Shown: piece after piece, positions 14,055-60,898 of the stretch
Layout: each line of letters begins with the position of its first letter
How positions within the stretch are numbered: the stretch's first letter is position 1
Source of the DNA: a virus
DNA length: 60,898 nucleotides
Direction: 5' to 3' (one strand)
Virus record (IMG/VR): IMGVR_UViG_3300047469_000079
Coordinates: 1-60,898 of that record
Position numbers and translations under genes: made by a program
The notes under the pieces: model-generated
What the model was told of the DNA's origin: nothing
What the model saw: only the letters and a program-made list of their open reading frames with translations
The model's database searches: none

Positions 14055-14067
14055 GGGGATGTAACCT

Positions 14068-14862: not shown

Positions 14863-14960
14863 CCGAAGACGTACTTGAGCAGCGCGGCGAGCACCAGGAC
14901 CGGCACGCCAATCGCAAGAAGCAACTGGACCAGCACTACCACTATGAGAGTGACGCGCAT
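14859..14960 (-). CDS. 33-aa single-pass membrane protein
   Basis: A short ORF, MRVTLIVVVLVQLLLAIG and a hydrophobic continuation ending KYVFG, starts at ATG 14960 overlapping the previous TGA and ends overlapping the TTG of the exonuclease. The tight coupling at both ends supports translation. Almost the whole chain is membrane-spanning. Function unknown. Confidence 0.55.
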   Translation of the reverse strand: MRVTLIVVVLVQLLLAIGVPVLVLAALLKYVFG

Positions 14961-15520
14961 CAAGCGCCTCCAATTCGGTTGAGGGTTTCGAGGGACTCGC
15001 AGTTGCGGAAGCGACGCTCGGGATACTTCGCCTTCAGGCGTTGCAGACGCTTGGCCGACGAGTCGATGCGCCACTGGGCCTTGCCCCGGTCACCCGTGTA
15101 GGTACAGGTGTTCTTGAGGTTGTCGATGGTGAATGCGCCCGTCCAGATGACACCGTGTGGTGTTACTGCGATCTGTGACAGCGCAAAGTCGAAGTCGTGG
15201 ATGTTGTCCACCGGGTCTTTGATGTCGAACGGGTTCAGGTCGATGATGTTCAGACGCGGACGTCCGTCATCGAAGTGAATCTCGAACTCGAACTCTTCGC
15301 AGCCCGAGGGGTCCGTGGGTTCGATTACGTCGAAGCGCCCGCCCACGGAGATAGCCAAGCGTTCGAGGGTCTTGCGCGTTACGTCGCAGCCCGTCATGAC
15401 GTCGATGTCCTTGATGGGTTTGCCGAAGTACGCATCGCGCGGCGCACCGCCTGCAATCACAGCGTCAGGGAGGTAGTCGCGGATAGCAGGCAGCAGTTCT
15501 TGCAGGTCAGTGAGTTTCAT
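14960..15520 (-). CDS. Nucleotidyltransferase-like protein (CCA-adding/poly(A) polymerase head domain)
   Basis: A 186-aa protein starting at ATG 15520, overlapping the DNA polymerase 3' end by 14 bases. AGGAPRDAYFGKPIKDIDV is the class II nucleotidyltransferase signature (GG, RD, then DxD metal site). There is no C-terminal RNA-binding tail of a full tRNA nucleotidyltransferase (usually about 400 aa), but a short basic helix (KRLQRLKAKYPERRF). It might act on RNA ends or be a nucleotidyltransferase toxin-like or anti-host enzyme. A tRNA-like gene lies in the same phage. Confidence 0.7.
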   Translation of the reverse strand: MKLTDLQELLPAIRDYLPDAVIAGGAPRDAYFGKPIKDIDVMTGCDVTRKTLERLAISVGGRFDVIEPTDPSGCEEFEFEIHFDDGRPRLNIIDLNPFDIKDPVDNIHDFDFALSQIAVTPHGVIWTGAFTIDNLKNTCTYTGDRGKAQWRIDSSAKRLQRLKAKYPERRFRNCESLETLNRIGGA

Positions 15521-25267: not shown

Positions 25268-25291
25268 TAAAGCAACTCGCTTCACTTCAGG
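25268..25291 (-). repeat. GAAGTGAAGCGAGT-type repeat, copy 1
   Basis: On the minus strand CCTGAAGTGAAGCGAGTTGC followed by TTTA lies over the end of the RNA polymerase C-terminal gene. The gene's TGA is within the first bases of the element. Near-identical copies are at 27936..27959 and 34298..34321. Confidence 0.7.
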
Positions 25292-27935: not shown

Positions 27936-27959
27936 TAAAGCAACTCACTTCACTTCAGG
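27936..27959 (-). repeat. GAAGTGAAGCGAGT-type repeat, copy 2, ending the polymerase N-fragment
   Basis: The minus strand reads CCTGAAGTGAAGTGAGTTGC then TTTA. The TGA in it is the stop codon of the polymerase N-terminal fragment, whose last residues SPEVK come from the repeat itself. It differs from copy 1 by one base over 24. Confidence 0.72.
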
Positions 27960-28838
27960 GGAAATGAAGACGTAGTCCTGCGGCTCGCAAATCATGGGAG
28001 CCAGGAAGGGGCGATGCAACTCGCAGGAATTCTGGAGGCTCATGGTGAGCGCTCGGGCGGTCTCGGTCATACCGAAGTACTGACGGGCGAACTTCTGGCC
28101 CTCTTCGCGTTCCTCGGTGATCTCGAACCAGCCATTGGACTCGATGAGCATGGACATGACCTCACCGCCAACGTGGACCTTGGTGCGCTGGTCCCAGTCG
28201 AGCTTCTGGAGGGTCTGCGACTTCTTCGACCACTTGTCGAAGACGCGCTTGTCCACCTCGCCGTTGTTCCGGTGCAGCATCAGCTTGAACAGGTTCACCC
28301 CGTCCTCGCCGGTCTGCTTGCGTAGCTTCTCGGCGGCCTTCTCTGCCTGTTGCCACGCCTGGTACTCCAGTTCGTGCCGGATGCGGGCGGCGCAAAGGAT
28401 GCGCACCGAGGTCCACCCCGCGTCCACCGGGTTCGCCAGCGCTGTCAGGACGGCACAGGCGGCGATGGTGTCAGCGGGGAGCATTGTCAGGATGGTCGTG
28501 CTATCCGGCAGGCGGGACATCTCGCGTCCCTGGGCGTCGTTCAAGCGGTCAGCGAATGCCTGCTGCGCTGCTTTCACGGCGGCGACCATCGGCCCGATGA
28601 GTTCGGACGCGATCCGCTGGCCGTGCTGAACCTCGTCCAGACCACGCTGAACGACGCCCCCTGTTTTGGTCTCGCGGACCAGAGTTTTGCGGTAGCGCTC
28701 GATGCCGCGCTGAACCTGCCAGTGCTCCCAGTGACGCTGGGCCGTTGTGTCGGTCGCACCTACAGGCACCGGCTTCATGGGAAGTGTTTTGGTGTGGGAT
28801 GTAGTGCTTTGATCCGATTCGCTTTCAGATGCGACCAT
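27945..28838 (-). CDS. T7-type single-subunit RNA polymerase, N-terminal fragment
   Basis: A 297-aa protein starting at ATG 28838 behind GGAGAGACACG. It aligns with the N-terminal domain of T7 RNA polymerase: RGIERYRKTLVRETKTGGV near the start, a middle helical region, and HVGGEVMSMLIESNGWFEI, which matches the T7 segment leading into the intercalating hairpin. It ends HRPFLAPMICEPQDYVFISPEVK (split here in two: HRPFLAPMICEPQDYV, then FISPEVK), at the point where the C-terminal fragment begins. This part normally binds the promoter and melts DNA. A host-like promoter and a phage promoter lie upstream. Confidence 0.88.
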   Translation of the reverse strand: MVASESESDQSTTSHTKTLPMKPVPVGATDTTAQRHWEHWQVQRGIERYRKTLVRETKTGGVVQRGLDEVQHGQRIASELIGPMVAAVKAAQQAFADRLNDAQGREMSRLPDSTTILTMLPADTIAACAVLTALANPVDAGWTSVRILCAARIRHELEYQAWQQAEKAAEKLRKQTGEDGVNLFKLMLHRNNGEVDKRVFDKWSKKSQTLQKLDWDQRTKVHVGGEVMSMLIESNGWFEITEEREEGQKFARQYFGMTETARALTMSLQNSCELHRPFLAPMICEPQDYVFISPEVK

Positions 28839-31435: not shown

Positions 31436-31891
31436 TTGATGTTTTCCCTTGAAGTGGTGTTTATGTAAGACGAATTAGGGCCACTCACTTTACTCCACAT
31501 CTATTACAGCGTCTAGCTTCATCACGATCTACATTGCTACTCCAGGGCTCTGCGGCCCTCTCTTAGAGTCTTATAGAGTCTTAAAGATAATCCTTAGCCT
31601 CTACCCTATGCGGAGTTACTCGATCGGTCTGACTCAGGCTGTTCAGGAGTGGCTGCTACCCCTATCCACCCTTACAGACGTCTCGACGGGTGCAAACTTT
31701 ACGCTTACGACGCACTTTCAATCCTGTAAATTCGGCACATCTTTAATTGTTTTTCGGGGCTTCGCGCACGCGCGTAAGGGGAGAGAATAGGCCCAGGACG
31801 CTAGACAGCACGCCTGGGAGCCGCTCGCAACGTCTGACGAATAGCTCAGCGACCCTAGACGGCCTGAGCCGCTCAAATCGCCTGCTTTCCT
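31436..31891 (-). other. Long untranslated leader upstream of the XRE regulator
   Basis: No convincing gene is present on either strand. It holds a phage promoter (31604..31622), repeated AGACTCTA/TAAGA motifs just after it, and a GTAAAGTGAGT relative of the intergenic repeat at 31474..31486. A hammerhead ribozyme lies at its upstream edge. Confidence 0.5.
31604..31622 (-). promoter_or_regulatory. Phage RNA polymerase promoter in the regulator leader
   Basis: The minus strand reads CGAGTAACTCCGCATAGGG, the best match to the family consensus together with 48509. Transcription would proceed to the XRE regulator and integrase. GTAGAGG follows, as at 48503 and 13108. Confidence 0.68.
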
Positions 31892-34669: not shown

Positions 34670-35543
34670 TTGAATACCCGAGCATAACGTAGGGTCTTTA
34701 GCCGTCTCCAGCTGTCCCAAAACACCCCCTTTTTAGGCCCAAAAATCGCCCGCAAACCCAGGCCCAGCAAGGAAGGCTCAGCTGTGCTCGTGAGCGTCGG
34801 ACAATCGACGGTCTTTAGGGCGTCTCCGTGCCTCCCGTGCGGTCAATATCCCGCTCAGGTGTGCGTGTGTATCGCCCTGGTATCGCTTGGGACATCAGGC
34901 GGCCGTATGGAGTCGCTGAGCCGTGCGGCGACGCTGGGCGATACATGCGCATGCCTGAGCGGAACCAAGGGCGCTTAGAGCGTCTATAGGCGTCTCAGGT
35001 ACACCACCATAGAAGCAACCCAGGAGCAGGTATAAGCGATGGCTTAGAACGGACTGTGTGCATGGTGTATGCCCGTGCTACCCGTGCCTGTCACCATGGG
35101 TACAGTGAGCCCCTCTGTGTGTCCTATAGATCACCCAGCGTCACTCTTACCATGTGCTGAGTTACTCACCCAGCGTCTAGGGAAAGCGTGTGCTCGCGTG
35201 TGCGTCCCGTGTGGTGAGCGGAGGGCGAAGCCCGGAGCGGCCATAAGCCCCAAGAACAAAAAAAAACAGTAGCGTGCAAGTGCATGCGCTCGCTCACAGT
35301 CAGCCGCAATAGCCCAGCGTCCCGTGACCCTCCAGGCGTCCCGTGCTACCCGTGGACAGCCCGCAACCCAGGCCATGGTCTATCTAATCCGATTGCCATA
35401 CCCCGCAACCCCAATAGAATCAGGCACTTAGCCGCTCCCCGTGGTGCGTGGTGTGGGCTTTGGTGTGGCCTGTGCCGCTCCCAGCCAGCAGCAGAATCCC
35501 TCGATCCGCCCAAGGACCCTGGCGGCCCCTATGGGGGAAAATC
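34670..35543. other. Gene-poor region with short repeats, candidate genome-end (terminal repeat) region
   Basis: No convincing gene is seen in about 870 bases on either strand. The sequence has many short repeats (GCGTCTC, CCCGTG, GCTGAG) and a run of nine A residues at 35260..35268, and holds one phage promoter. It lies between the terminase end and the first early promoter, where T7-like genomes have their direct terminal repeats flanked by short-repeat arrays. The exact ends cannot be read from sequence alone. Confidence 0.45.
35146..35167 (-). promoter_or_regulatory. Isolated phage promoter in the terminal region
   Basis: GAGTAACTCAGCACATGGTA on the minus strand, with no gene for more than 600 bases downstream. 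T7 has promoters (phiOL, phiOR) near its ends that act as secondary origins; this may be equivalent. Confidence 0.5.
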
Positions 35544-35600
35544 GGCTCGCGCGGCGGCGAACACCTTGTCACGCATTTTCGGGATAAAAATGAGTCCGAG
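35544..35600 (+). repeat. Element shared with unit B, phage copy
   Basis: GGCTCGCGCGGCGGCGA, then TTGTCACGCATTTTCGGGAT and AAAAATGAGTCCGA. It matches 50492..50547 in most positions. Both copies lie upstream of a small plus-strand membrane-protein gene, so it may be a shared promoter region. It also lies near the presumed packaging ends. Confidence 0.65.
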
Positions 35601-35737
35601 GTATCCCAGGGACTCCCAGGTAACCCCAAGCCCTCCCCCGCTGCCCAGGACGTCCCAGGACGGGCTCCCAGGGTTCCAGGAAGGCTACCGTACCAGTTGA
35701 GGTAACATGCCCGCCTAGACCGTTTTGGAGCCCCACC

Positions 35738-36043
35738 GTGCTTACTGACTTTGGCGAGATTCTCTTGATCTGGATTCCCTCTGCGCTGGCCGTGCTGGTC
35801 AGCGTGTTCTTCGTGCTGCGCTGGCTTGCGCGTAGGGGAGCGAAGGTGCAGTTGGAGAAACTCCGCAGGCTGCACCCCGCCCTCTTCGACAAGTTCCGCA
35901 TGACCGTTGAGGCTCAGACCTACGAGACCCCGCACAGGGTTGACTACGTCAAGCTGACCAGCCACTTCCGTATCTTCCTTGAGTGCCACGGTATAAGCAA
36001 CCCGTGGAACCCAGTCAGTGGATCGGACTCGCCCAGTCGTTAG
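35738..36043 (+). CDS. 101-aa membrane protein on the plus strand
   Basis: GTG 35738 follows GGAGCCCCACC. N-terminal membrane segment (residues about 8-27, ILLIWIPSALAVLVSVFFVL) and a soluble basic remainder (EKLRRLHPALFDKFRMTVEA). It converges with the terminase gene, 12 bases apart. Orientation and separate promoter suggest a lysogen-expressed moron. Confidence 0.6.
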   Translation: MLTDFGEILLIWIPSALAVLVSVFFVLRWLARRGAKVQLEKLRRLHPALFDKFRMTVEAQTYETPHRVDYVKLTSHFRIFLECHGISNPWNPVSGSDSPSR

Positions 36044-43911: not shown

Positions 43912-46900
43912 TACTCAGGGAATAGCAATCGTGAGAGTCCGAAGTATTGGTTGAGGGGGATGAGTTGCTTGGCCTTCGACGCGACCTTATCGGTATCGCC
44001 TTGAACCGCCGAGGACACCAGAGAACCACCCGTGTTCAGGGTGCCGCTCCATGCTCCCAGCAAGTTCTCGTACCACGCATTCGCTGCGAACTTCGAGCCC
44101 TGACCACCAAGCGTGAAGCCGAACTGCTGCTTCAGTTGAGGGTCGAGAAGTTTCACGCCAGAGTCCATGTACGCACCGTAGGCTCCTTGGAGTCCCGAGC
44201 GTTGCAGGATGTTGTACGCGAACTCGGTGGGACGATTCTCGAACTGGTCGATAGGGTCCTCACCCTTGAGGTACGACTTCAGGGCGTTGATTGCTACGCC
44301 CGTAGCGAGCGCCCAGCCCACAGCCATAGCGAACCGTGTGTGGTCCCCAGTTACTGCGCCGTACTGAACACCCGCGCGAACGAAGTGATTTGAGAAGGCG
44401 AACGCCATCGTCTGGAACTGGAGGAACAGCTTACCCACCGCGCCGTCCATCATGAGCGGAGTGTGAGCGTAGCCGCCAGTCAGGGAGGCGCGACGCTGCG
44501 TCTTGATGAGCGCAGTTTCCAGCGTGGTGCGCAGATTCAGCGCGTCCCTGCCGGTGCCCCACTTACCCATGTTCGGGTAGAACAAGCCGTTGCCTGCCGT
44601 CTCGCCGTGCTCAGCGAACAGCTTGGCGAGCCCGTTGGCCTCAGTGCGTCCGATGCCCAGCGCGGTGAGTTGCGCCTGCTGGCCCTTCGAGAGCGCATCG
44701 AAACCCTGGCCCACCCACTGCCGAATCTTCGCCATCTGGAAGACGCCCGCCGTGCGCCGGATATTGTCCGACCACGAAGAGAGTCCCGTGAGCTTGGAGA
44801 CCGCAGTGATGCCTTGCTGCATGCCGACTTCGAGCGCGGTCGTTGCCTTCCGCGTGAATCCAGTACCGAACCCGACGTACTCTCGACCAGCACCGCGACC
44901 TAGATGACGCTCGGACATGTTGCCCACCAGCCCATGCTCGAAGGAGCCCATGAGCATAGCGAGTTCCTTTGCGCCCTCTGAGCCCTTGGCGACGTCCTTG
45001 AGGATCGCAGCGAACTGACGGGTGCCAGTGCCGGTCAATGCCTTCAGGGCCGAGCCAGGAGCCGCGAACGCAGCGGTTGCCAAGTCGTTGATAGCCGACA
45101 TCACGAACCCACCGACGAAGCGGAGAGTCGAGGCGTCGCGCACGCGGTCGAGGAAGTAGGTCACAGGATCGTCCCCGCGAGGCTCGTATACACCGAGGAC
45201 TCGGTTCTTCAAACCTTCCAGGTCCTTCTGCACCATCGCCTTCTCTTGCTGCGCTGCCACCTTGGCCTTGCCGTCGAGCCCGCCGATCTTCCGGTCGTAC
45301 GAGTCGAGCACTGTTTCCATACGCTTGTTGAACGGCCCACCCAGGGCTTCGTGGAGCGCGATGCGCCCGCCGAGGTCCTTGTGATACGCCTCCATCAAGT
45401 CAGCCACGTTGGACTTCAGGAAGCCCTTGTCCACCATCCGTTGATACTGCTCATCGGAGTAGGTGATCTTGCGCTCCTTCACGCGTCCCGAGTCGGGCAG
45501 TTCGTCCAGCAGGAGACCGCTTGGTGCCTTGTCGATCCCGGCGAAGTGATTCGCCATCTCATCGACGGCCTTCTGGACCGGGTGCGTCTCGTGCGCCAGG
45601 CGTCGCTGGTCGCGAAGGGACTTCTTCAGAGCATGAGCGGACTTGTTGGACTCAGCCTCGGCTTCAGTCGCGGCCATCCCCAGTTGCTTGCGCAACTCGA
45701 ATGCGTCCCGACGTGCAGCCGTTGCTTCCTCCAGCTTCTCCTTCAGATGGCTAGCGGCATCAATGTGCCCGTCCATCTCGTGCTCCAGCCCAGGCTTCAG
45801 CAGGGCTTCCTTCTCGTCGTCCATGATCTTCTTCACTTCAGCCGCCGCTGCGTCGTGCCATCGCTGGCTGTTCGCGTAGTCCTTGGCGACTGAGTCGAAG
45901 TCGGCGTTCGCGCGTCGCAGGGACTCTTGCGCCTCCCGGCGTTCTTCCATGGCCTCGCGGATAGTGGCCTTCGCCTCGTTGATCTCAGCCTGCGTCGCCT
46001 TGCGCTGCGTGTTGAGCGCATTGCGTTGCTGACGGAGCGGAGTCTGAGCACGGGCACGCTCGGTGCCACCCAGGTTCTCGGAGACGTCCTTCAGTTCTCC
46101 GAGGACATCAGCCTTCTCCGCACGGGTAGCCGCCTGCTGGCCCTTCAGGTCCTCCACCTTGCCCTTGAGGGACTCGGTGAGGCTCTGAGCTTCAGACGTT
46201 GCAGCGAGACGCTCACGCGCCTTCTGGACGGCTGCACCAGCCTCATCGACACGCATGCCCTGTTCTTGCAGGGTGTTCACGATGTCGGTGTATGCCGACT
46301 CGTCGCCGCCCAGCTTGTCCAGTGCAATGCTTACCTTGGCGTCTGCCTTCTGCGCCGCGTAGGTAGCCGAGGCCACCTTGCGCAGCACGGCGTTCCGTTC
46401 GAGGCTCCGACCGCGCGTCTGCATCTCATCGAGCTTCGCACGCTTCCACTCGCGCTCTGCACCAGCGTGAAGTTGCAGGATGTCCGCAGCGTCGTGCTGT
46501 GCGCCCGCTTGCCGACGCGTGGCCTCATCGACCCGCGCCTGGAGCATCGAGTTGGTCCAGTCGTTCTCTTCGCCGCGCCATGCCCGCAGGACGTCGTTCA
46601 GTTCCGTGGGCGTGGCCTTCTCCTTCATCTCGTCCCAGGACGCGTACTGCGGCCCTTCGACGCCTTCAGGTAGCGGGGCTGCGTTGGGGTCCTTGATGTG
46701 ACCTTCCTCGCGTAGCCACCACTCGGTCGGGTTCGAGCCGAACACTTCGTGCAGGTCGTTCTTGAACTCCTGCATGTTCCGCGCGATCTGGGCACGGTCA
46801 TAGACTTGGGGAGCGCCGTAGCGCCCTTCGCCCTTCGCGTCGGGTTCGATTGCACCCACCTTGACGCCCCGGTCCCACAGAGCCTCCATGGAGTCGTGGG

Positions 46901-48347
46901 CCGTCTTCTCTGCCTTGTAGACCAGCGGGTGAACCACCTTGGCCTGAGCCTCGGTGAGTCCCGAGTCCCGCAGGGCCTTCATGACGTTCTCGGAGATTTG
47001 AGCGCTGGGCGTGGCCGTGTTCGAGCCGCGCATGATCGTGAAGACTGCCTGGTTGAACGCATCACGCGGCAGCGTGTTTCTATCGACCGCGCCTTGGGAC
47101 GCAGAGGTCAGCTTGTCCTTCACGTTCGTCTCGAACGCGGACTGACCGAGCGCTTGGTTCGCTTCGTTCCAGACGTTATCGATCTGGCCCATGTCGAACT
47201 TGAACTTCTGTCCGTTCAGCAGCGCGAGGTCTTCCGCCGAGGGGCCGTGAGACACACCCTCCAGGTTGGCCTTGGTCAGCATGCCGCCCGTATCAGCCAG
47301 GCCCAGGAACAATTCGCGGGCCTCGGGGATCGAGTAGTTGCTGAAGCGCTGCATAGGCGTCGCACCCATGAACGTCGTTGTCTTGTCGAGTGCCCGTGCG
47401 AGCCGGCCGCCTTGGGCCAGTTCAGTACCAGCCTCGAAGTCGGACGCTGCATTCGCATCAGCGCGAGCCGCACCGACAGAGTCAGCCGTGCCGAACGTGG
47501 GCTCCTTGCGACCGTAGGGGTCGAGCGTGAAGCCTTCCTCGGGCGTCTGACCCAGTTGCATCTCGACCACCGGCTGCGGCTTGTCCACGTTATCGGGATG
47601 CAGCGGGTTGTCGGGGTGCGTTGGGTTGAGAACACTGTCAGGCTTCGCGTGCTTGAAGATGCCGCCCACGACACCGCCGAGCGAAGCAGCGATGCCGATG
47701 TTCATGAAGAGGTCTTTGGGGTCTGCGTCTCGCGTGGAGTCCGTGAGTTGCAGTGCGCCTTCCTGTGCCGCCGCGTCGAGCGCGAAGACACCAGCGCTCT
47801 TGAGGACGCTACCGACAGTCGAGGCCGCCTTGATACCACCGAGCGCTACGCCACCAAAGGAGGCAGCAGACGTCAGGTCGAACATCGAGGCACCCATGCC
47901 GAGCAAATGGCCCCAGATGTCTCCCCGCGCGGCCATTTGGTGGTCGGCCAGGTTTAGTCGCTGACCGTCAAGGTACTTGCGAAGTCCACCCTCGGATTGA
48001 ATCGTATTTATTCTGGACTCCGACAGTACATAGGGGAGAATGTCCTGGTACTGCGATTCGTTTTTCTTGAGATAGGTCCAAGGGTTGAAGGAAGGGTCCC
48101 TCGGCTCGGAAATGTCGGTGTGTGTGAGTTCCCGATAGCCCTGCCCGATACGGGTATTCACGCGCCATTCAGCGGCGGCCACTTCGATAGCATTGGGCCT
48201 GCCGAGGTCAGCGACTTCGGTGTCCTGCTTGACGTGGATGCCGACGTCGTTCGGCTGGGCGTCCATGCCGACACCAGGGACGGCGTCGATGACGGGTGCT
48301 GGGGTCGTATTGTCTGAAACGGACGGGGAGAGTGGATTGGTAGTCAT
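43911..48347 (-). CDS. Gp16-like internal virion (DNA ejection) protein, complete copy
   Basis: A 1478-aa protein with no recognisable transglycosylase domain at its N-terminus. The middle (about residues 600-920) is a long charged coiled coil; several hydrophobic helices occur in the N-terminal (ASFGGVALGGIKAA) and C-terminal thirds. Size and place (before the fibre gene) match T7 gp16. As drawn, its 5' part joins unit B (promoter at 48509) while its 3' part joins the fibre gene of unit A. A second copy of both ends is at the window edges. Confidence 0.7.
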   Translation of the reverse strand: MTTNPLSPSVSDNTTPAPVIDAVPGVGMDAQPNDVGIHVKQDTEVADLGRPNAIEVAAAEWRVNTRIGQGYRELTHTDISEPRDPSFNPWTYLKKNESQYQDILPYVLSESRINTIQSEGGLRKYLDGQRLNLADHQMAARGDIWGHLLGMGASMFDLTSAASFGGVALGGIKAASTVGSVLKSAGVFALDAAAQEGALQLTDSTRDADPKDLFMNIGIAASLGGVVGGIFKHAKPDSVLNPTHPDNPLHPDNVDKPQPVVEMQLGQTPEEGFTLDPYGRKEPTFGTADSVGAARADANAASDFEAGTELAQGGRLARALDKTTTFMGATPMQRFSNYSIPEARELFLGLADTGGMLTKANLEGVSHGPSAEDLALLNGQKFKFDMGQIDNVWNEANQALGQSAFETNVKDKLTSASQGAVDRNTLPRDAFNQAVFTIMRGSNTATPSAQISENVMKALRDSGLTEAQAKVVHPLVYKAEKTAHDSMEALWDRGVKVGAIEPDAKGEGRYGAPQVYDRAQIARNMQEFKNDLHEVFGSNPTEWWLREEGHIKDPNAAPLPEGVEGPQYASWDEMKEKATPTELNDVLRAWRGEENDWTNSMLQARVDEATRRQAGAQHDAADILQLHAGAEREWKRAKLDEMQTRGRSLERNAVLRKVASATYAAQKADAKVSIALDKLGGDESAYTDIVNTLQEQGMRVDEAGAAVQKARERLAATSEAQSLTESLKGKVEDLKGQQAATRAEKADVLGELKDVSENLGGTERARAQTPLRQQRNALNTQRKATQAEINEAKATIREAMEERREAQESLRRANADFDSVAKDYANSQRWHDAAAAEVKKIMDDEKEALLKPGLEHEMDGHIDAASHLKEKLEEATAARRDAFELRKQLGMAATEAEAESNKSAHALKKSLRDQRRLAHETHPVQKAVDEMANHFAGIDKAPSGLLLDELPDSGRVKERKITYSDEQYQRMVDKGFLKSNVADLMEAYHKDLGGRIALHEALGGPFNKRMETVLDSYDRKIGGLDGKAKVAAQQEKAMVQKDLEGLKNRVLGVYEPRGDDPVTYFLDRVRDASTLRFVGGFVMSAINDLATAAFAAPGSALKALTGTGTRQFAAILKDVAKGSEGAKELAMLMGSFEHGLVGNMSERHLGRGAGREYVGFGTGFTRKATTALEVGMQQGITAVSKLTGLSSWSDNIRRTAGVFQMAKIRQWVGQGFDALSKGQQAQLTALGIGRTEANGLAKLFAEHGETAGNGLFYPNMGKWGTGRDALNLRTTLETALIKTQRRASLTGGYAHTPLMMDGAVGKLFLQFQTMAFAFSNHFVRAGVQYGAVTGDHTRFAMAVGWALATGVAINALKSYLKGEDPIDQFENRPTEFAYNILQRSGLQGAYGAYMDSGVKLLDPQLKQQFGFTLGGQGSKFAANAWYENLLGAWSGTLNTGGSLVSSAVQGDTDKVASKAKQLIPLNQYFGLSRLLFPE

Positions 48348-48502: not shown

Positions 48503-48528
48503 TCCTCTACCCTATGCGGAGTTACTCG
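48503..48528 (-). promoter_or_regulatory. Phage RNA polymerase promoter upstream of the unit B gp16-like gene
   Basis: The minus strand reads GAGTAACTCCGCATAGGGTA then GAGGACCCTATA. Aligned on GGG, TAACTCCGCATAGGG matches T7 CGACTCACTATAGGG in 11 of 15 positions including ACTC and ATAGGG. The GAG TAA is the end of the upstream gene. The transcript starts with a GGGT/ACCC hairpin. This is the best-formed member of the family. Confidence 0.72.
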
Positions 48529-49118
48529 TCCCCCCGTCGCTTATTGAATTCGCGGAGCTTCTCCAAACGCTCCCAGGGACTCAGGGACTCATCTCGCAGC
48601 AAGGCGGCCTGACTATCACCGCTCGGCGGTGCATCTTCGACACCTCGCTCGCCATCGCGTCGAGCGACGCTTCGCGCCAGCTTCTGGCGGTACCAATCCT
48701 GAATTTTTCGTTGCACCCAAGTTGGTCCTTCGCGTCGCGGGGCGCTCGCGCGGAATGCACGGATGTTCAGGTTGCGCTCGCGGGCTTCCTTGGCGCGGGT
48801 CTTCTGAGCGTGGCGATGCTTGACGGCGTCCGCTGCGGTCATCTGGAAGTGCTGGAGACAGTAGGCGTCGCTCGCGAGGTCGCTTCGCTTCACATAGCCG
48901 CGTCGATTGGCGTCCCGTGACTTCCTTGGATTCCGTGCGCGGGCTTCGCGGGCCTTCCGCTGGAAACAGTCCCTGCAATCGAGCGAATAGGCGGATTGCG
49001 TCCACAGTGGGTATTTCACATTGCGGTAGAAGGCGGACACGGGTCTCTCCGCGCGGCATGTGCGACATACGAGTGTCGCCGGGGGCTTCCAGCCCTTCGG
49101 AATTCTGGTCAACATTTC
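48522..49118 (-). CDS. Zinc-binding basic protein of unit B
   Basis: A 198-aa protein from ATG 49118 (MLTRIPKGWKPPATLVCRTC). Cys pairs VCRTC and CRDC, then a strongly basic chain (KAREARARNPRKSRDANRRG). A likely nucleic-acid binder. The 103-aa product of 59260..59571 has a similar Cys motif. Its stop codon is part of the promoter at 48503..48528. Confidence 0.6.
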   Translation of the reverse strand, partial: EMLTRIPKGWKPPATLVCRTCRAERPVSAFYRNVKYPLWTQSAYSLDCRDCFQRKAREARARNPRKSRDANRRGYVKRSDLASDAYCLQHFQMTAADAVKHRHAQKTRAKEARERNLNIRAFRASAPRREGPTWVQRKIQDWYRQKLARSVARRDGERGVEDAPPSGDSQAALLRDESLSPWERLEKLREFNKRRGDE

Positions 49119-49351
49119 ACGATATGGAATAAAGGATTGACGGGGAAGGCGTGCGAATGCGTAGTGATGTGCTCGGCAGGAACCCGAGGGCCGATCCGCG
49201 CTTGCTGGCCGTTGAACGCGCTGCATTCCTCCTGCGGGCCTGCTGAGGCCATGTCTCGCCACGAGCAACCTGCGCCCCAAGCGCACACGCGTTCCGCTGA
49301 GGTATACCTGTGCGAAACGCCCCTGACGCCGAAGATAACGTTCCGTTAGGG

Positions 49352-49379
49352 TTGACAGTGTTTTCGGAACATCTATAAT
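49352..49379 (+). promoter_or_regulatory. Consensus sigma-70 promoter with CGGAAC repeats for the serine recombinase
   Basis: TTGACA and TATAAT with a 16-base spacer, both perfect. Three CGGAAC repeats occur at 49365, 49381 and 49396, within and after the promoter, a likely operator for self-regulation by the recombinase or another protein. Confidence 0.85.
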
Positions 49380-49417
49380 TCGGAACACCAACTCAACGGA
49401 ACGGGGTGAAACGAAGC

Positions 49418-50014
49418 ATGAGACGCATCTACTACGGGCGTGTATCGACGCTCGACGGGCAGACCGCCGCGAGCCAATACGCCGACGCCGCAGAACGCGG
49501 CATAGAGAAAGACGATGTTTTCATTGACGAAGGGGTGAGCGGGTATCACATACCGCCGCTTGATCGGAAACAGTGGCAGCACGTAGAGCGTGATTTGCGC
49601 AAGGGAGGCGTGCTGGTTGTACGGTGGCTCGACCGAATCTCGCGCCGCTACGACGAACTGCACGACACGATGCAGCGCCTCATGAAGAAGGGAGTCCGCG
49701 TCGAATGCACCCTCAACGGAATGGTGTTCGATGGGCAGGAGACGGACCCACTACGAAAGGCGGTGCGCGAGGCTCTATTGGCCTTCATGGCAGCGCAGGG
49801 CGAAGCGGATTATCGGAACCGGCGCGATATGCAGGCCCGTGGCATAGCGATAGCGAAGGATGAGGGGAAGTACAAGGGCCGCAAGCCCGCCGTGGATTAC
49901 GCAGAAGTCAGGGCGTACCACGCGGAACACGGAGGCTCTGTGCGCTCCCTTGCCGAACATTTTGGCGTAGGCGTGGCGACGATCTTCCGTGCCCTGAATG
50001 CAGCGAACGACTAA
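49418..50014 (+). CDS. Serine recombinase (resolvase/invertase family)
   Basis: A 198-aa protein starting at ATG 49418 (GTG 49406 is possible). RRIYYGRVSTLDGQTAASQY holds the catalytic Ser; FIDEGVSGYHIPPLDRKQW, GVLVVRWLDRISRRYDELHD and a C-terminal helix-turn-helix (GSVRSLAEHFGVGVATIFRA) complete the small resolvase plan. It may resolve multimers or invert DNA; a target site cannot be named. Confidence 0.9.
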   Translation: MRRIYYGRVSTLDGQTAASQYADAAERGIEKDDVFIDEGVSGYHIPPLDRKQWQHVERDLRKGGVLVVRWLDRISRRYDELHDTMQRLMKKGVRVECTLNGMVFDGQETDPLRKAVREALLAFMAAQGEADYRNRRDMQARGIAIAKDEGKYKGRKPAVDYAEVRAYHAEHGGSVRSLAEHFGVGVATIFRALNAAND

Positions 50015-50358: not shown

Positions 50359-50396
50359 GACCGCGCAAGCTTCACCCGGTTTCGAAGTGACCCAAG

Positions 50397-50422
50397 GCTC
50401 GCCGCAAGGCGGGCTTTTTTTG
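50397..50422 (+). terminator. Intrinsic terminator of the recombinase operon
   Basis: GCTCGCC, GCAA loop, GGCGGGC and seven T residues. It ends the two-gene plus-strand operon. Confidence 0.85.
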
Positions 50423-50491
50423 CGCCTGACTACAGGTGAGAGATTCCCTTGACCGTCCCTAAACCGCTTGGGGAGGGCACGGGGGGAACCT

Positions 50492-50547
50492 GGCTCGCGC
50501 GGCGGCGACACCCTGTCACGAATTTTCGTGAGTAAAATGAGTCCGAC
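50492..50547 (+). repeat. Element shared with unit A, unit B copy
   Basis: GGCTCGCGCGGCGGCGA, then CTGTCACGAATTTTCGTGAG and TAAAATGAGTCCGA, matching 35544..35600. It lies 25 bases upstream of a small membrane-protein gene, as does the unit A copy some 140 bases before its gene. Confidence 0.65.
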
Positions 50548-50571
50548 TATCCAGCGACTCAGGAGTGGCCC

Positions 50572-50757
50572 ATGAACCTACAGCAACTTCACGCCGACAT
50601 CGACAAGATTCACGCCGAAACGATGAGAATCCACGAGCGCAATAGACATCCCTGGGGCCTCTTGCGAGACCTCGGGGCGTTCTTCGCCGGGGCCGTCACC
50701 TTCGCGGGCATGGTCGCGGGGCTCTACGCGCTGTACGGTCACTTCCACCCAAAATGA
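50572..50757 (+). CDS. 61-aa membrane protein
   Basis: ATG 50572 follows CAGGAGTGGCCC. Helical N-terminus (LHADIDKIHAETMRIHERNR) and a membrane segment near the end (FFAGAVTFAGMVAGLYALYG). Same gene order as 35738..36043 after the shared element, though the proteins themselves differ. Confidence 0.6.
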   Translation: MNLQQLHADIDKIHAETMRIHERNRHPWGLLRDLGAFFAGAVTFAGMVAGLYALYGHFHPK

Positions 50758-52757: not shown

Positions 52758-52775
52758 GTTGTTGTGTAGGGTTCT

Positions 52776-52795
52776 ACCCTGTGCGGAGTTAGTTG
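52776..52795 (-). promoter_or_regulatory. Phage RNA polymerase promoter in unit B
   Basis: The minus strand reads CAACTAACTCCGCACAGGGT then AGAACCCT. The TAA is the stop of the 326-aa gene, as in other members. It should place the 39-aa and 205-aa genes of unit B under helper-phage polymerase. Confidence 0.65.
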
Positions 52796-53769
52796 CGAGG
52801 TTCGCTTTCGGTCTTTCTTTTCGCGCTAGAGCGGAGGCGCAATGCGTCCTGTAGCTCCTGCTGCGCACGCTCTAGGGCTCGTGTAGCGGAACGCAGCGCC
52901 TGCAAGCACTGTGTCATTCCACGAGAAGCCTGTGTAATCGCATCCGCCGCGTGCTGTAGGCTGATGTCCTCTGCCGTTGGCGCGGGGGCATGTTTGGCGG
53001 CCTCCCGCTGACTCGCCCAGTTGCGAATAGACGCAGGACTGGTCATGTCGCCTGGAGTTTCCCCGAGGGCGTCGAAATTCTCAGCTAACCATATGGTTGA
53101 GGGCCGGTCAGGCACGTCGTGAAATCCTTTCGCCTTTACCCATGCGCCGTAAGCGCCGCATCGGCCATCAGCGTTCAATCTTTTGCCGACCGCTAGGGCC
53201 TGCCCGACATCGCGCCACCATTTGAGATGTTCGCTGTTTGATTTTTTACGCCGCTCTTGCGCCTTGTCTCCCTGCCTACGTGACAAGGCCCGTCGTGCTG
53301 GCATCGCCTCTTTTATGGAGGCCCATGCAGCTTGACCACGCGCAACGACCGCCACTAGGTCCCGCGTATCTGCGGACGTTTTCTGCGGACTTTTGAGTTG
53401 TTGTGCTGTGGCCTCGTCGGCGTAGCGTGCGGGTCGCGGACCCTTCCCTGATTCCAGTTCGCGGTTCCGATACCACTCTAGAATTTGAAGCGGCAGCGTG
53501 CCGTGGGGGGCATCAGCTTTTGCGTATTCTTCCACGCCGATCTGGGCAAATCCGGAGATGCCCCCGAGGTCGTTGTACGCACACCATTGTCTGAAGACGG
53601 TCCCGTTCGGCGTCACCTTGCGGCCTACCGCAAGCGCTTTACCTAATGCGTACCATTCCCCATGCATCATGGCTCTGGATGCTTTGATGGTTTTCCACGC
53701 TTCGCGTCCGCGTTGAAGCAACAACGCGTCGGAAGCGCTTACTCCAGCGTTCATTGGAGACTCGCTCAC
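52789..53769 (-). CDS. 326-aa protein with two copies of a WxxxGxALAVG domain
   Basis: GTG start at 53769. Repeat 1: REAWKTIKASRAMMHGEWYA then LGKALAVGRKV; repeat 2: AAWASIKEAMPARRAL, then KWWRDVGQALAVGKRL and YGAWVKAKGFHDVPDRPSTI. The C-terminal 80 residues are helical and basic. A third copy of the domain is in the next upstream ORF. A DNA-binding regulator is plausible from charge; the family is not recognised. Confidence 0.6.
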   Translation of the reverse strand: MSESPMNAGVSASDALLLQRGREAWKTIKASRAMMHGEWYALGKALAVGRKVTPNGTVFRQWCAYNDLGGISGFAQIGVEEYAKADAPHGTLPLQILEWYRNRELESGKGPRPARYADEATAQQLKSPQKTSADTRDLVAVVARGQAAWASIKEAMPARRALSRRQGDKAQERRKKSNSEHLKWWRDVGQALAVGKRLNADGRCGAYGAWVKAKGFHDVPDRPSTIWLAENFDALGETPGDMTSPASIRNWASQREAAKHAPAPTAEDISLQHAADAITQASRGMTQCLQALRSATRALERAQQELQDALRLRSSAKRKTESEPRN

Positions 53770-54335: not shown

Positions 54336-56030
54336 TCATTTGATATCGGGCCATTTCACCTTATCCAATGCCGCCTTCATGGTAGGTAGCGACGCAGCAG
54401 CAGTGTAGACCTTGCGCCCGCTCGAACCGGTCGCAGAGTGCCCTGTGATTGCATCCATAGTGGCCTCGCCTATGTGCTGCTCAGCGAGCGCCGTGCGAAT
54501 CCAATGCCGGAACCTGTGTGCCCCTTTCAGGTCTCCGGGCGGCAACCCGGTAGCTGCGCGAAATTGGCGAAACCACTGCCCCGCCGTATCTCCTGGGCCT
54601 TTCGCGCGGCCAGCCATTGACGGCATGGCGGGGCCGGTGCCACACATGACGCCCGAGAGCCAATTAGCGAACCAAGGATCGACAAGCAGGTGCGCTGCGA
54701 GCGGCACGACACGTTCCGATTCCTGCGTCTTCACTTTCCCCGCCTCGGCGGTAATGCGAATAGCCGTGACCCCATTGCGACTCAAAAAATCTTCACGGCG
54801 CAGTTGCGCAATTTCACCAATGCGTGCCCCTGTGTGCAGCATTAGCAGGATCATCGCCCTACCGTCGGAGGGCTCGACACCTTCCCAGCGTGGCGTGTCG
54901 TTCATGCTGGCAGAGAATAACGAACTCGCGAACATCAAATCTAGTTCGCCATCAGTCCACGGCTCGCGCTTTTGTGCCCCGATGGTTTTATCAAACGACA
55001 GGTCGAACGGATTACGCTCTATCAAATCCACCTTTTCCGCGACATTCATCAGCGCGTTGATGGCTGCGGCATGATTGCCCGCTGTCTTGTTTGCGAACTT
55101 GCGGGCCTCTGCGTCAAGGAGGAACTGCACAAAGGCGACTCCATGAGCTTTCTTCAAGTCTTTCAGCGCAACAACGCCCACTGCCAGTTCGAACAATGTC
55201 AGCGCTTTCTCCGTGCGCCCTACAGCGTTATCCTTCGGTGCATTGAGTCTGCGCCAAAACGGCACAACATCGCGAAGAGTAAGGCAAGACTCGGCAGGTT
55301 CCTCGGGCTTCCCGATTACTGGCGGAGTCGGGTCTGTTGGTGTCTCCACAGGTTCACCAGAGTCTCGCTTGGACGCGTTCTCCCAGGCACGGACCATAGC
55401 TCCGAGTATCTTCTGAAGCGCTGCCCGAGCTTCAGGCTGCGTCCAATCCACACGGATTGCCAACGCCGCACACGTGGTCCCTGCGATGGCTCGTGCCGCT
55501 TCGAGTCTCCCCACCATGTAGTCCGTGCGCAGCAACCGTGCGATTGCCGTGCGTATCTCGCTGGCGCTTTCGTATTGCTCAGGGTCCAAATAGTCGCCCA
55601 CGGCGTCCCATGCCTCTTCTACTACAGGATCACCAACGAGTCGGCCTCGCGGCGCGGTCGAGCGTATGACGTCGCGGAGATAGCGCGGATTACTGCGAAG
55701 GAGATCGTCCAACGCCAAGACATCACGCTCGATTTTTTGGACGATATAGGCAACTAGTTCGTTCGTTACCGGGGTGGGTGCCGTGGGCCTAGAGCCTGCA
55801 CGCAAAGTCTCGAATCTGCGCTGCTGCTCCGCAATGATCGCGTGCGCTCTGGATGCCGCTTCGTTGCGATCAGATGTCTTGAGACTAGCGCGGTAGGCAT
55901 CAGTGGCGAGCTTGTCGTTCGCCTGACGCTCCCAAAGATGCTGGATGTCTTTGGGTACTCCAACGCGCAAGTGATACACGGAGCCGCGAAGGCTGACTCC
56001 AGCAGGAAGGGTAACGGGCATGTCTGTCAT
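54336..56030 (-). CDS. int: Tyrosine integrase of unit B
   Basis: A 564-aa protein from ATG 56030 (MTDMPVTLPAGVSLRGSVYH). The N-terminus resembles DUF6538-type integrases. Catalytic residues: LLMLHTGARIGEIAQLRRED (Arg), HRFRHWIRTAL (HxxR), ITGHSATGSSGRKVYTAAAS (His, Tyr). It reads away from a tRNA-Pro 3'-end sequence about 120 bases upstream of its start, the expected attachment site. A longer ORF passes through that sequence but its added part is not protein-like. Confidence 0.92.
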   Translation of the reverse strand: MTDMPVTLPAGVSLRGSVYHLRVGVPKDIQHLWERQANDKLATDAYRASLKTSDRNEAASRAHAIIAEQQRRFETLRAGSRPTAPTPVTNELVAYIVQKIERDVLALDDLLRSNPRYLRDVIRSTAPRGRLVGDPVVEEAWDAVGDYLDPEQYESASEIRTAIARLLRTDYMVGRLEAARAIAGTTCAALAIRVDWTQPEARAALQKILGAMVRAWENASKRDSGEPVETPTDPTPPVIGKPEEPAESCLTLRDVVPFWRRLNAPKDNAVGRTEKALTLFELAVGVVALKDLKKAHGVAFVQFLLDAEARKFANKTAGNHAAAINALMNVAEKVDLIERNPFDLSFDKTIGAQKREPWTDGELDLMFASSLFSASMNDTPRWEGVEPSDGRAMILLMLHTGARIGEIAQLRREDFLSRNGVTAIRITAEAGKVKTQESERVVPLAAHLLVDPWFANWLSGVMCGTGPAMPSMAGRAKGPGDTAGQWFRQFRAATGLPPGDLKGAHRFRHWIRTALAEQHIGEATMDAITGHSATGSSGRKVYTAAASLPTMKAALDKVKWPDIK

Positions 56031-56152
56031 TTCCGTAGTTTCGCACAGCGGATTGACACACTCCAGAGACACAGCCGTAAACGAGAAAGCCCGGTGAGCC
56101 TTGTCAGCATTGGCTTTCCCAATACTGGCTTGACTTACCGGGCTATGTCTCT

Positions 56153-56180
56153 TGGTCGGGGCGAGAGGATTTGAACCTCT
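56153..56180 (-). other. Attachment-site core: 3' end of a tRNA-Pro gene
   Basis: The minus strand reads AGAGGTTCAAATCCTCT then CGCCCCGACCA: full T-arm, 3' acceptor strand, discriminator and CCA. It matches bacterial tRNA-Pro closely. The matching 5' half (CGGGGCG and the anticodon arm) is absent upstream, so this is a partial tRNA, as found at att sites of integrative elements. On the plus strand the inverted repeat AGCCCGGT/ACCGGGCT (56090..56142) adjoins it. Confidence 0.8.
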
Positions 56181-56262
56181 GTGAACCCACGGTGGAATAA
56201 GGCTTTCCCGGAAGTGTGTCGTGTCAATTCGCTGGCTTAATTGACACAGCACAACAAGTTTA

Positions 56263-57570
56263 TCATGTGCCGGTTTCAGAGACCGATTTAGACGGAATGT
56301 CTGACACGCTTGCAACGCTTTTTGGCTTTCCAAGCTTACCCAATGCCTCATTAGCCAACTCGACTACTCTTCCCGCAAATCCTGGAATAGTTTTAGCAGC
56401 ATCCTTGACGACATCCGACGAAAGGAGTTCGTGCCACGGGCTGCCATGGGTCGTTGTTTCTACCAATCGCAAAGGGAGTTCGTCCAAACGGGCTAGCGCA
56501 GACTCAAGGAGGCTGGCTTCCATGTCAGAGTCGATGCGGGCAGCTTCGCGCCGATACCCTTCGTAAGCTCTTGAAATCGACGCTTTGAATGCGTAATCTT
56601 CTGATAGTCGAAACCGTTGACCGACCTGCTTTGTCGCTAGCCAAGCGAACCAGACGGGCGCTCCAACCGAGAAGAGGGACAAGACAAGATCAAGCGATAG
56701 CATGCTTCCAGTAGTCGCCGGGTTTTTGATGAGGTCCGAAAGTTGATGAAGTTGCCTAGACCCAAGCAACCCAGCCAGCACCAAGGCAAGCACCAACCCG
56801 GCCACCCATGCCCACATGGACTTGTCAAGCGCCCGCGAACGCTCAGCAAATGCCGCCGCCAGACCTTGGCTTGTCGCTGCCGAATAGGCAGACTCGCACC
56901 TAGCCAAGACGGCGCTTGCCTCGTCGGCGTTCGCATTAAGTTTACTACTGAGCTTGTCCGCTTCTTCGCGGGCCGACAAGAGATGGGCGCGATCCCTTTC
57001 AGCCTCCTTGAGTAGCTCCTGCACCTTCTGGCGGGCCTCTGCTAAAGTCTCCAAATCCGTCGGTAATTGATCGGCTGTGTTGTACGCGCCTTCTATTCGC
57101 TCAACCATATCGGTCAAGGCCGCCGATCTGGGTTCAAGTCCTTTGACACGAGCCTCCATCGCCCGAATCTGAGATGCTACACGTCTGATGGCAGCAGCAT
57201 TCTCTAAATTCGGGTCGATGGTAAGTACATTTGACAGTGCCTGTCGCAGTCCGTCGAGTGTGAGCAGATAAGCAGAAACACCGGCGGCGGCATTCCCCCA
57301 AATGTTCGGCACAGTACTCGACCTGAGGTACTGAAGTCGGCGCAAGTAGTCATTTAGCCGTGGTTCGCTCTCAGCAATCGAATCACCACCCCGCTCACGA
57401 ATCAATGTGGCGAGGGACGTCGCGGCCTCAGCAAGCTCCACGCGAGTCAGTCCTGGGAAGGTCCAATTTCCGTGCGCATTGGAAAACGGCTCATCGTTCG
57501 GAATCGAACTTTTGACTTGCGCTGCCAACTGATCTAATTCCGTGCAGATTGCCTCTAAGATCGCGTGCAT
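56263..57570 (-). CDS. 435-aa coiled-coil membrane protein next to the attachment site
   Basis: ATG 57570. Helical soluble N-terminal part, coiled coil (about residues 150-235), two membrane segments (MWAWVAGLVLALVLAGLLGS, then LSLFSVGAPVWFAWLAT) and a soluble C-terminal helical part. More A/T-rich than the phage genes. Place beside att is typical for cargo, and this topology occurs in membrane-anchored defence proteins, but there is no diagnostic domain. Confidence 0.55.
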   Translation of the reverse strand: MHAILEAICTELDQLAAQVKSSIPNDEPFSNAHGNWTFPGLTRVELAEAATSLATLIRERGGDSIAESEPRLNDYLRRLQYLRSSTVPNIWGNAAAGVSAYLLTLDGLRQALSNVLTIDPNLENAAAIRRVASQIRAMEARVKGLEPRSAALTDMVERIEGAYNTADQLPTDLETLAEARQKVQELLKEAERDRAHLLSAREEADKLSSKLNANADEASAVLARCESAYSAATSQGLAAAFAERSRALDKSMWAWVAGLVLALVLAGLLGSRQLHQLSDLIKNPATTGSMLSLDLVLSLFSVGAPVWFAWLATKQVGQRFRLSEDYAFKASISRAYEGYRREAARIDSDMEASLLESALARLDELPLRLVETTTHGSPWHELLSSDVVKDAAKTIPGFAGRVVELANEALGKLGKPKSVASVSDIPSKSVSETGT

Positions 57571-59259: not shown

Positions 59260-59571
59260 TTACTTGGTGGATTGGTGAATTGCGAGGGCGCGGGCTTTCT
59301 CGCGGGCGCGTTTGGCGCGGCTGACGCGACGGGCGACGTCCACTGTCTTGCAGTAGTGATTCAATCCGTCAGATCGGCTACGGTCGCTGTAAAACTCGGT
59401 GACCGGATGCTCGCGGCCACAGGCGCGGCAGAATTTCAGCTTGACGCCATTGGGGACTGGGATGTCAGGCTTATCGTCCGCGTCGGCAATGAGGCGCTGG
59501 ATTTCTGCCTCTTGAAGCGATACGACAACGTGACTGACCCAGAGAAAATCTTCGGGGATGGTGTGTTGCAT
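59260..59571 (-). CDS. 103-aa zinc-motif protein after the gp16-like gene
   Basis: KFCRACGREHPVTEFYSDRS and NHYCKTVDVARRVSRAKRAR: a CxxC plus later Cys, followed by a basic tail, similar to the 198-aa unit B protein and to phage Zn-finger/HNH remnants. It lies where the tail fibre gene lies in unit A. Confidence 0.55.
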   Translation of the reverse strand: MQHTIPEDFLWVSHVVVSLQEAEIQRLIADADDKPDIPVPNGVKLKFCRACGREHPVTEFYSDRSRSDGLNHYCKTVDVARRVSRAKRAREKARALAIHQSTK

Positions 59572-59649: not shown

Positions 59650-60898
59650 TTAGTTAGACTCAGGGAACAGCAATCGTGAGAGTCCGAAGTATTGGTTGAG
59701 GGGGATGAGTTGCCTGGCCTTCGACGCGACCTTGTCTATGTCGCCTTGAACCGCAGAAGATACGAGGGAGCCCGCACTGTTCAGTGTGCCGCTCCACGGT
59801 CCCAGCAAATTTTCATACCAGGCATTTGCCGAGAACTTGGAGCCCTGACCGCCAAGCGTGAAGCCGAACTGCTGCTTCAGCTGAGGGTCGAGAAGTTTCA
59901 CGCCAGCATCCAAGTAGGACCCGTACATGGCGGGTAGTCCCGAGCGTTGCAGGATGTTGTACGCGAACGTCGTAGGATTGCTCAGCATGTCTTCGACAGG
60001 ATCACCGCCTTTCATATAGGTCTTGATGGCGTTGATCGCAACGCCCGTAGCAATAGCCCATCCCACAGCGGTAGCGAACCGAATGTGATCCCCCGTGACT
60101 GCGCCGTACTGGATGCCCGCACGGATGAAGTGATTTTCGAAGGCGAACGCCATCGTCTGGAACTGGAGGAACAGCTTGCCCACGGCACCGTCCATCATGA
60201 GCGGAGTGTGAGCGTAGCCGCCAGTCAGGGAGGCGCGACGCTGCGTCTTGATGAGCGCAGTTTCCAGCGTGGTGCGTAGATTCAGTGCGTCCCTGCCGGT
60301 GCCCCACTTACCCATGTTCGGGTAGAACAATCCGTTGGCTGCCGTCTCGCCGTGCTCAGCGAACAGCTTGGCGAGCCCGGTGGCCTCAGTGCGTCCGATG
60401 CCCAGCGCGGTGAGTTGCGCCTGCTGGCCCTTCGAGAGCGCATCGAAACCCTGGCCCACCCACTGCCGAATCTTCGCCATCTGGAAGACGCCCGCCGTGC
60501 GCCGGATATTGTCCGACCACGAAGAGAGTCCCGTGAGCTTGGAGACCGCAGTGATGCCCTGCTGCATGCCGACTTCGAGCGCGGTCGTTGCCTTGCGCGT
60601 GAAGCCAGTACCGAACCCGACGTACTCTCGGCCAGCACCACGGCCCAGATGACGCTCGGACATGTTACCCACCAGCCCGTGCTCGAAGGAGCCCATGAGC
60701 ATAGCGAGTTCCTTTGCGCCCTCTGAGCCCTTGGCGACGTCCTTGAGGATCGCAGCGAACTGACGGGTGCCAGTGCCGGTCAATGCCTTCAGGGCCGAGC
60801 CAGGCGCAGCGAACGCAGCGGTCGCCAAGTCGTTGATAGCCGACATCACGAACCCACCGACGAAGCGGAGAGTCGAGGCGTCGCGCACGCGGTCGAGG
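59650..60898 (-). CDS. Gp16-like internal virion protein, C-terminal part, cut by window edge
   Basis: The frame enters from the right edge and ends at 59650 (LLFPESN then stop). It is highly similar to residues of the complete copy encoded by 43911..45156; the last 75 bases of the window equal 45082..45156. The C-terminus is two residues longer. It is followed by small genes instead of the tail fibre. With the left-edge fragment this accounts for all of a second gp16-like gene except 2252 bp. Confidence 0.72.
   Translation of the reverse strand, partial: LDRVRDASTLRFVGGFVMSAINDLATAAFAAPGSALKALTGTGTRQFAAILKDVAKGSEGAKELAMLMGSFEHGLVGNMSERHLGRGAGREYVGFGTGFTRKATTALEVGMQQGITAVSKLTGLSSWSDNIRRTAGVFQMAKIRQWVGQGFDALSKGQQAQLTALGIGRTEATGLAKLFAEHGETAANGLFYPNMGKWGTGRDALNLRTTLETALIKTQRRASLTGGYAHTPLMMDGAVGKLFLQFQTMAFAFENHFIRAGIQYGAVTGDHIRFATAVGWAIATGVAINAIKTYMKGGDPVEDMLSNPTTFAYNILQRSGLPAMYGSYLDAGVKLLDPQLKQQFGFTLGGQGSKFSANAWYENLLGPWSGTLNSAGSLVSSAVQGDIDKVASKARQLIPLNQYFGLSRLLFPESN

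Follow-up and report, generated by a model that had tools for sequence, protein, structure and literature searches.

A predicted T7-type genome-end junction is shared by a phage and a putative satellite

A short element that occurs twice on one viral contig is, judged from sequence comparison alone, a conserved T7-type concatemer junction that marks the left edge of the terminal repeat when read on the minus strand. One copy (copy A) belongs to a T7-like phage and the other (copy B) to a smaller unit, unit B. In our assessment, the element is very probably a T7-type genome end and unit B a satellite of a T7-like phage, cut and packaged by its helper through copy B. We read unit B as a satellite because copy B would let a unit that has neither terminase nor capsid be packaged by a helper. 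The window, meaning the whole stretch of DNA that was analysed, is IMG/VR record IMGVR_UViG_3300047469_000079 (60,898 nt), and its features are collected in Table 1.

A phage and a second unit joined through gp16

The window has the form of a figure-eight, in which a phage of around 47.4 kb and unit B, of around 15.7 kb, have the middle of gp16 in common. Two pairs of long repeats (1 to about 840 with 47408-48250, spacing 47,407; and 43913-45153 with 59658-60898, spacing 15,745) both fall inside a gp16-like gene that overruns both contig ends. The repeats and a comparison with a phage-only genome indicate that the full-length gp16 carries the N-terminal part of the unit B version, whereas its middle and C-terminal part match the phage. 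The phage-only genome (G001) is an IMG/VR contig that closes as a circle of 46,947 bp with a 127-bp end overlap, showing that the phage exists without unit B. It is 98.8-99.7% identical to the window phage over most aligned stretches and 93% identical around the element; its gp16 is uninterrupted and contiguous with the preceding gene. The window contig may have arisen when two molecules were joined during assembly, or it may be a genuine cointegrate; these data do not distinguish the two.

The phage is T7-like, with a terminase, RNA polymerase, primase-helicase, DNA polymerase, portal, integrase, major capsid protein, nozzle and lysozyme. In the late orientation, its terminase is followed by about 0.5 kb, the element and then the early region. 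Prophage relatives were found in Rhizobacter, Xylophilus and Variovorax, and searches of phage-record DNA with 35001-60000 (megablast) and 35300-35900 (blastn) gave no match. The phage RNA polymerase is encoded by two open reading frames (ORFs) about 1 kb apart (25287-26978 and 27945-28838, minus strand; RPOL_N, phrog_414), with near-identical 29-base repeats at their downstream ends (25267 and 27935); the ORFs between the two parts had no family match. A tRNA-Ile gene (12257-12340, minus strand) overlaps the start of the portal ORF.

Table 1 Features of the window
Feature	Position	Strand	Basis or remark
N-terminal part of the phage's own gp16, running off the contig start	1..946	-	Repeats, comparison with G001
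Copy A, predicted T7-type concatemer junction, left edge of the phage terminal repeat	35520..35599	-	Model R1
Phage large terminase (gp19-like), 621 aa	36056..37921	-	Pfam PF22530 6.1e-31; tblastn against annotated terminases
gp16-like internal virion (ejection) protein, 1478 aa	43911..48347	-	phrog_16310, phrog_684
T7-type phage promoter, unit B	48505..48527	-	0 mismatches to GAGTAACTCCGCATAGGGTAGAG
HNH / endonuclease VII-like gene, unit B	48522..49391	-	phrog_2340, phrog_1035
Small serine recombinase (invertase/resolvase type)	49406..50014	+	phrog_125 4.6e-31
Copy B, predicted junction of the same type, in unit B	50470..50545	-	Model R1
Small leftward ORF, 61 aa, membrane-type by eye	50572..50757	+	Function unknown, no family match
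Second phage-type promoter, unit B	52772..52794	-	4 mismatches to GAGTAACTCCGCATAGGGTAGAG
326-aa protein, unit B, function unknown	52789..53769	-	Related stretch in satellite-like locus L130
Tyrosine integrase, unit B (DUF6538 + Phage_integrase)	54336..56030	-	Family match; alignment with satellite integrases
Putative attP, 3' end of a tRNA-Pro gene	56150..56215	-	Directly upstream of int
435-aa protein, unit B, function unknown	56263..57570	-	phrog_34659
Second HNH / endonuclease VII-like gene, unit B	59260..59571	-	phrog_1035 5e-8
C-terminal part of unit B gp16, running off the contig end	59650..60898	-	91% to phage copy

The element lies at the genome ends of T7-like phages

The sequence GGCTCGCGCGGCGGCGA is present exactly at both 35544 and 50492. 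The original prediction had pointed out this sharing, and the similarity proved to be longer than it described: 35533-35615 and 50482-50560 align over 83 columns with 84.3% identity (E 2.4e-14) and, gp16 aside, are the best repeat in the window. A sequence-only model (R1), constructed from 13 copies at other phage loci with the window left out, was run over the whole window with filters off. It recovered copy A (E 2.1e-22) and copy B (E 4.7e-17), with a third-best hit at 0.65. Because a model built without the window finds exactly these two sites, chance similarity is excluded.

In the junction, an A-rich box (AAAT) stands 44-48 bases upstream of a C-tract. In copy A, the box is at 35578 and the tract ends at 35533 (35533-35578, spacing 46); in copy B, they are at 50525 and 50482 (50481/50482-50525, spacing 44). 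We compared this arrangement with eight phages. The AAAT box precedes the start of the terminal repeat by 15 bases in four of them (T7, T3, gh-1 and Pasto), by 18 in Palo, 27 in LUZ100 and 10 in Lo5R7ANS, and the phiKMV junction has no AAAT box. The first CCCCC ends 30 bases inside the repeat in T7, T3, Palo and phiKMV, 31 in gh-1 and Pasto, 18 in LUZ100 and 37 in Lo5R7ANS; the distance is thus 30-31 bases in six of the eight, including phiKMV and Palo. The annotated 244-bp repeat of LUZ100 begins inside the same kind of sequence, and the available part of its report states that the termini were determined by nanopore sequencing (PMC10134795). The repeats of Pasto and Palo are PhageTerm predictions, according to the excerpts available (PMC8407765, PMC7844081). 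It is this position at known ends, together with the box-to-tract pattern at junctions, that identifies the element as a T7-type genome-end junction.

The 15-base rule therefore puts the predicted repeat start of copy A at about 35563 and the predicted cut of copy B at about 50510, both on the minus strand. Copy A lies about 0.5 kb beyond the large terminase (terminase end 36056, predicted cut 35563).

We then used the pattern AAATNNGNN{0,2}GRNN{18,45}CCCCC to search for the box and tract. It matched 14 of 18 records. In 13 of these the match marked the junction, the box and tract being 44-46 bases apart; elsewhere it hit Lo5R7ANS and G005 once each and gave overlapping plus-strand matches in G000 and G001. 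A reversed-pattern control gave 1 match. In seven further records, T3, gh-1 and RHEph01 were matched (spacing 45-46) and phiKMV, SP6, K1F and HTVC019P were not. The records of Pasto, Palo and Paso were also unmatched; in Pasto and Palo, the box and tract are at opposite record ends. R1 missed the junctions of T7, LUZ100, Pasto, Palo, Lo5R7ANS, phiA014S and YIMV22061, which were compared by pattern and by eye. On viral contigs, a first, narrow pattern had no match, and a wider one gave nine stretches, all on phage contigs already known through their terminase. Of 27 terminase loci, blastn placed the element behind the terminase in 9; the others are truncated or more distant. Divergent forms can be recognised in two loci, L030 and L031. 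Its presence at the repeat starts of phages with known ends and its retention behind the terminases of relatives support the suggestion that the element is a packaging signal.

The original prediction had offered a second reading, in which the element is a promoter for the small membrane-protein genes that follow each copy. On this reading, it would be shared as part of a common gene cassette with those leftward genes. A leftward small ORF does follow both window copies on the plus strand (offsets 160 and 47 nt), several relatives have differing leftward small genes at the same place when inspected by eye, and a leftward host promoter, A0, is annotated near the left end of T3 and T7 (in the T3 record, inside the terminal repeat). 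However, no sigma-70-like site was seen in 50380-50640, the conserved spacing matches the edge of the terminal repeat in T7, T3, gh-1 and Pasto, and the element also occurs where a crude scan found no leftward small ORF (T7, LUZ100, the integrated elements G388 and G467 described below, L030 and L031). That scan, for leftward ORFs of at least 45 aa with a Shine-Dalgarno-like stretch within 260 nt, was positive at 8 of 19 copies, and it is weak evidence because it missed leftward genes seen by eye. A small membrane-type gene after each copy is therefore a property of the window and not a general rule. We give the promoter reading very little credence; a weak leftward promoter overlapping the element is not excluded.

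Unit B has the gene content of a satellite

The ORFs of unit B that were scanned had no family match to a terminase, capsid or polymerase, and the scanned proteins (ORFs shorter than 60 aa were left out) had no AlpA or Bro-N match. Its tyrosine integrase adjoins a putative attachment site, matches to which (26-30 nt, 92-97% identity) were present in 16 of 60 genomes; ARAGORN placed a tRNA-Pro gene at all six of the attP-match places checked. Searched as a single protein against viral contigs, the integrase had no confirmed relative, and its alignment gave one weak match (26% over 145 residues, locus L118). The 326-aa protein was found in none of 399 genomes. Relatives of the 435-aa protein occur in 14 viral contig loci, and the names of several of these contigs are of the isolate type.

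Unit B also shares promoters with the phage. Eight promoter-like copies of GAGTAACTCCGCATAGGGTAGAG with at most six mismatches lie on the late strand (13106, 29116, 29611, 31599, 32183, 35145, 48505 and 52772), the last two in unit B, and no copy at this threshold was found on the plus strand of the window. The unit B promoter at 48505 is identical to the phage promoter at 31599-31621.

Unit B thus has an integrase with an attachment site, no phage core genes among the ORFs scanned and, as far as sequence can tell, the packaging signal of a helper, which are criteria for a satellite. Its cut-and-pack signal, which it shares with the phage, suggests that unit B, a small mobile element, travels in phage particles.

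Integrated relatives carry the junction without a terminase

We identified five integrated relatives that combine a tRNA-linked integrase with the junction, four of them between att repeats (6.1-16.5 kb); gp16 is present in three of the five and a gp15-like protein in one. Using R1 (E <= 1e-3) on 399 genomes of the family of the Variovorax relative, we obtained seven matches: three prophages with an adjoining terminase (G012, G011 and G141), two terminase-less elements (G330:C3 and G388:C5) with integrases of the unit B type, and two partial chance matches. A second model (R2), which includes the junctions of these two elements, gave four matches in 399 genomes of the order (G012, G467 and two chance matches) and, in six genomes of the genus of G388, found G388, G330 and one chance match. 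Junction matches in G109, G314, G443 and G525, which have no C-tract and no phage or satellite genes, were taken as chance, and so was that in G081:C108 (L113).

Searching with the unit B integrase (1e-20) revealed 15 places in 13 of the 399 genomes, the best two being G330:C3 and G388:C5. Five of the 13 places beyond these were examined. G081:C99 and G330:C1 have the junction (E 1.1e-5 and 0.0021 with R2; 4.9e-5 and 0.0065 with R1), G028 and G265 (loci L129 and L130) have only weak candidates (E 0.08 and 0.05), and no junction was seen in L131. The integrase place in G078 overruns its contig.

The five elements differ in site and cargo. In G388, 26-bp att repeats 16.5 kb apart at a tRNA-Arg gene enclose a serine recombinase, an HNH gene and a protein of 885 aa (27.9% to window 1843-4425, a stretch that precedes gp16) that we accordingly call gp15-like. 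The G330:C3 element lies at a tRNA-Leu gene and has an integrase, an HNH gene, a GDSL esterase, an Ig-domain protein and a gp16 at 33%; its other end is not visible. G467 contains the shortest, with 24-bp repeats 6.1 kb apart at a tRNA-Ala gene, an integrase, a serine recombinase, a KilA-N protein and the junction. In G081 and G330:C1, 26-bp repeats 14.9 and 14.5 kb apart at tRNA-Pro genes each enclose an integrase, gp16, the junction, a serine recombinase and an HNH gene. Genome G330 accordingly holds two different satellite-like elements (L096 and L128, at tRNA-Leu and tRNA-Pro). In L096, the GDSL esterase and Ig-domain protein (13411-15269) follow gp16, the position of a phage tail-fibre gene, and in the G388 element (L095, 16273-17874) there is an ABC-ATPase/DUF4435 protein that is possibly a defence gene.

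Across nine loci, comprising the relatives and weaker candidates, tblastn found no terminase match (E <= 1) and no portal, capsid, nozzle, RNA polymerase, DNA polymerase or primase-helicase match (E <= 0.01); as a control, the terminase query found all 12 prophage loci L029-L040. Because the relatives checked (L095, L096, L097 and L112) lack a match to the promoter consensus of the window phage, unit B is the only element for which promoter sharing has been shown.

In unit B, G388, G467, G081 and G330:C1, a serine recombinase gene is found no more than about 0.6 kb from the junction, its 3' end pointing that way, as would be expected if the junction were the target of the neighbouring recombinase (a res- or inversion-type site) and the phages carried a landing place. 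This seems most improbable to us, given that the junction is at the physical ends of T7, T3 and gh-1, that no serine recombinase relative was found near the junction of G330:C3, and that the junction predicts terminal-repeat starts.

The relatives also bear on whether unit B is simply a defective phage relative or an assembly chimera, with copy B a leftover genome end. The figure-eight contig joined through gp16 and the retention of a phage structural gene would fit such an origin. Against it, the unit B integrase adjoins a tRNA-Pro attP, and the five relatives with integrase and junction are chromosomal, four of them between att repeats, with no match to a terminase or core protein. We therefore consider a defective or chimeric origin unlikely.

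The recurrence of the junction in integrated, terminase-less, satellite-like elements further strengthens the packaging-signal interpretation. The original wording, that the signal was copied by the satellite, holds for the sharing but is too strong on copying, because copies A and B are only 84% identical and the integrated relatives of unit B are divergent. Copy B looks like an old component of the satellite lineage.

A proposed route into helper particles

From the DNA itself one can read which signal this is, that it lies at known ends and that unit B and five integrated relatives carry it, as well as unit B's gene content, att site and promoter match. Cutting, packaging, dependence on a helper and the use of gp16 in unit B are inferred. 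According to the available part of the source (PMC3276506), maturation and packaging begin in T7 when the complex of RNA polymerase and lysozyme, paused at the concatemer junction, meets gp18/gp19; packaging specificity resides in gp19 and near the termini.

By the proposed route, a helper phage would enter or be induced, unit B would be excised at tRNA-Pro, and the helper RNA polymerase would read the two phage-type promoters of unit B. Concatemers of unit B would then form. The terminase would act on replicating concatemers, with the left repeat edge as the start of maturation and the place of the cut, so that in unit B the helper terminase would cut about 15 bases past the AAAT box (near 50510, minus strand). 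Unit B DNA would finally enter helper particles, the core of which may contain unit B's own gp16. The gp16 of T7 spans the envelope and binds DNA, as stated in the portion of the report available (PMC8954989). The gp16 and gp15 genes suggest that ejection proteins are made by the satellites.

Elements of 14.5-16.5 kb are about one-third the length of the 46.8-47.4 kb phage, and the 6.1-kb element of G467 does not fit this ratio. One-third length would suit trimers or a small head, on arithmetic only. We lean slightly towards a satellite family of T7-like phages, with Burkholderiaceae-type hosts, in which the helper junction has been copied, several members have their own gp16/gp15 and those of 14.5-16.5 kb are about one-third of the helper length, which would fit trimers or a smaller head.

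Discussion

Satellites are well studied for helpers that package by cos or headful mechanisms, and a tycheposon is a tRNA-integrating element with tycheposon core genes. In 1990, Chung and Hinkle reportedly found that plasmids with a T7 origin and concatemer junction are packaged. Unit B resembles those plasmids in combining, on a replicon foreign to the phage, a T7-type junction with phage promoters; as far as the partial account of them allows comparison, it differs in that it appears natural, integrates and has its own gp16.

The element itself resembles the T7/T3 concatemer junction in its place behind the terminase, its A-rich box, its C-tract and their spacing of 44-48 bases, whereas copy B occurs without a terminase and cutting there is undemonstrated. 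The temperate T7-like phages LUZ100 and Pasto represent the likely helper type, with a T7-like layout and genes or signs of lysogeny, but are full phages and not satellites. Like unit B, PICIs and helper-embedded PICIs have an integrase, an att site and captured helper late genes; by contrast with what the available part of that source describes (PMC10111431), the present helper is a T7-like phage that packages through terminal repeats, the elements integrate at tRNA genes and the scanned unit B proteins had no AlpA match. The minimal satellites known as PICMI are similarly reduced to the 6.1-kb element of G467, which, unlike them in the excerpt available (PMC10803314), carries a T7-type junction; the likeness is not sequence-based.

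A search of titles and abstract starts in the open-access literature revealed no recognisable satellite of a T7-like (Autographiviridae) phage. Satellites and T7 junctions are each known, and their combination is new as far as we searched. If our reading is correct, unit B parallels in nature the plasmid-packaging experiments with T7, and the A-box, 44-48 bases and C-tract provide a sequence test for such satellites that would also predict T7-type genome ends from assemblies. It would, in addition, be a case of satellites supplying ejection proteins, in which particles would inject with satellite-made machinery.
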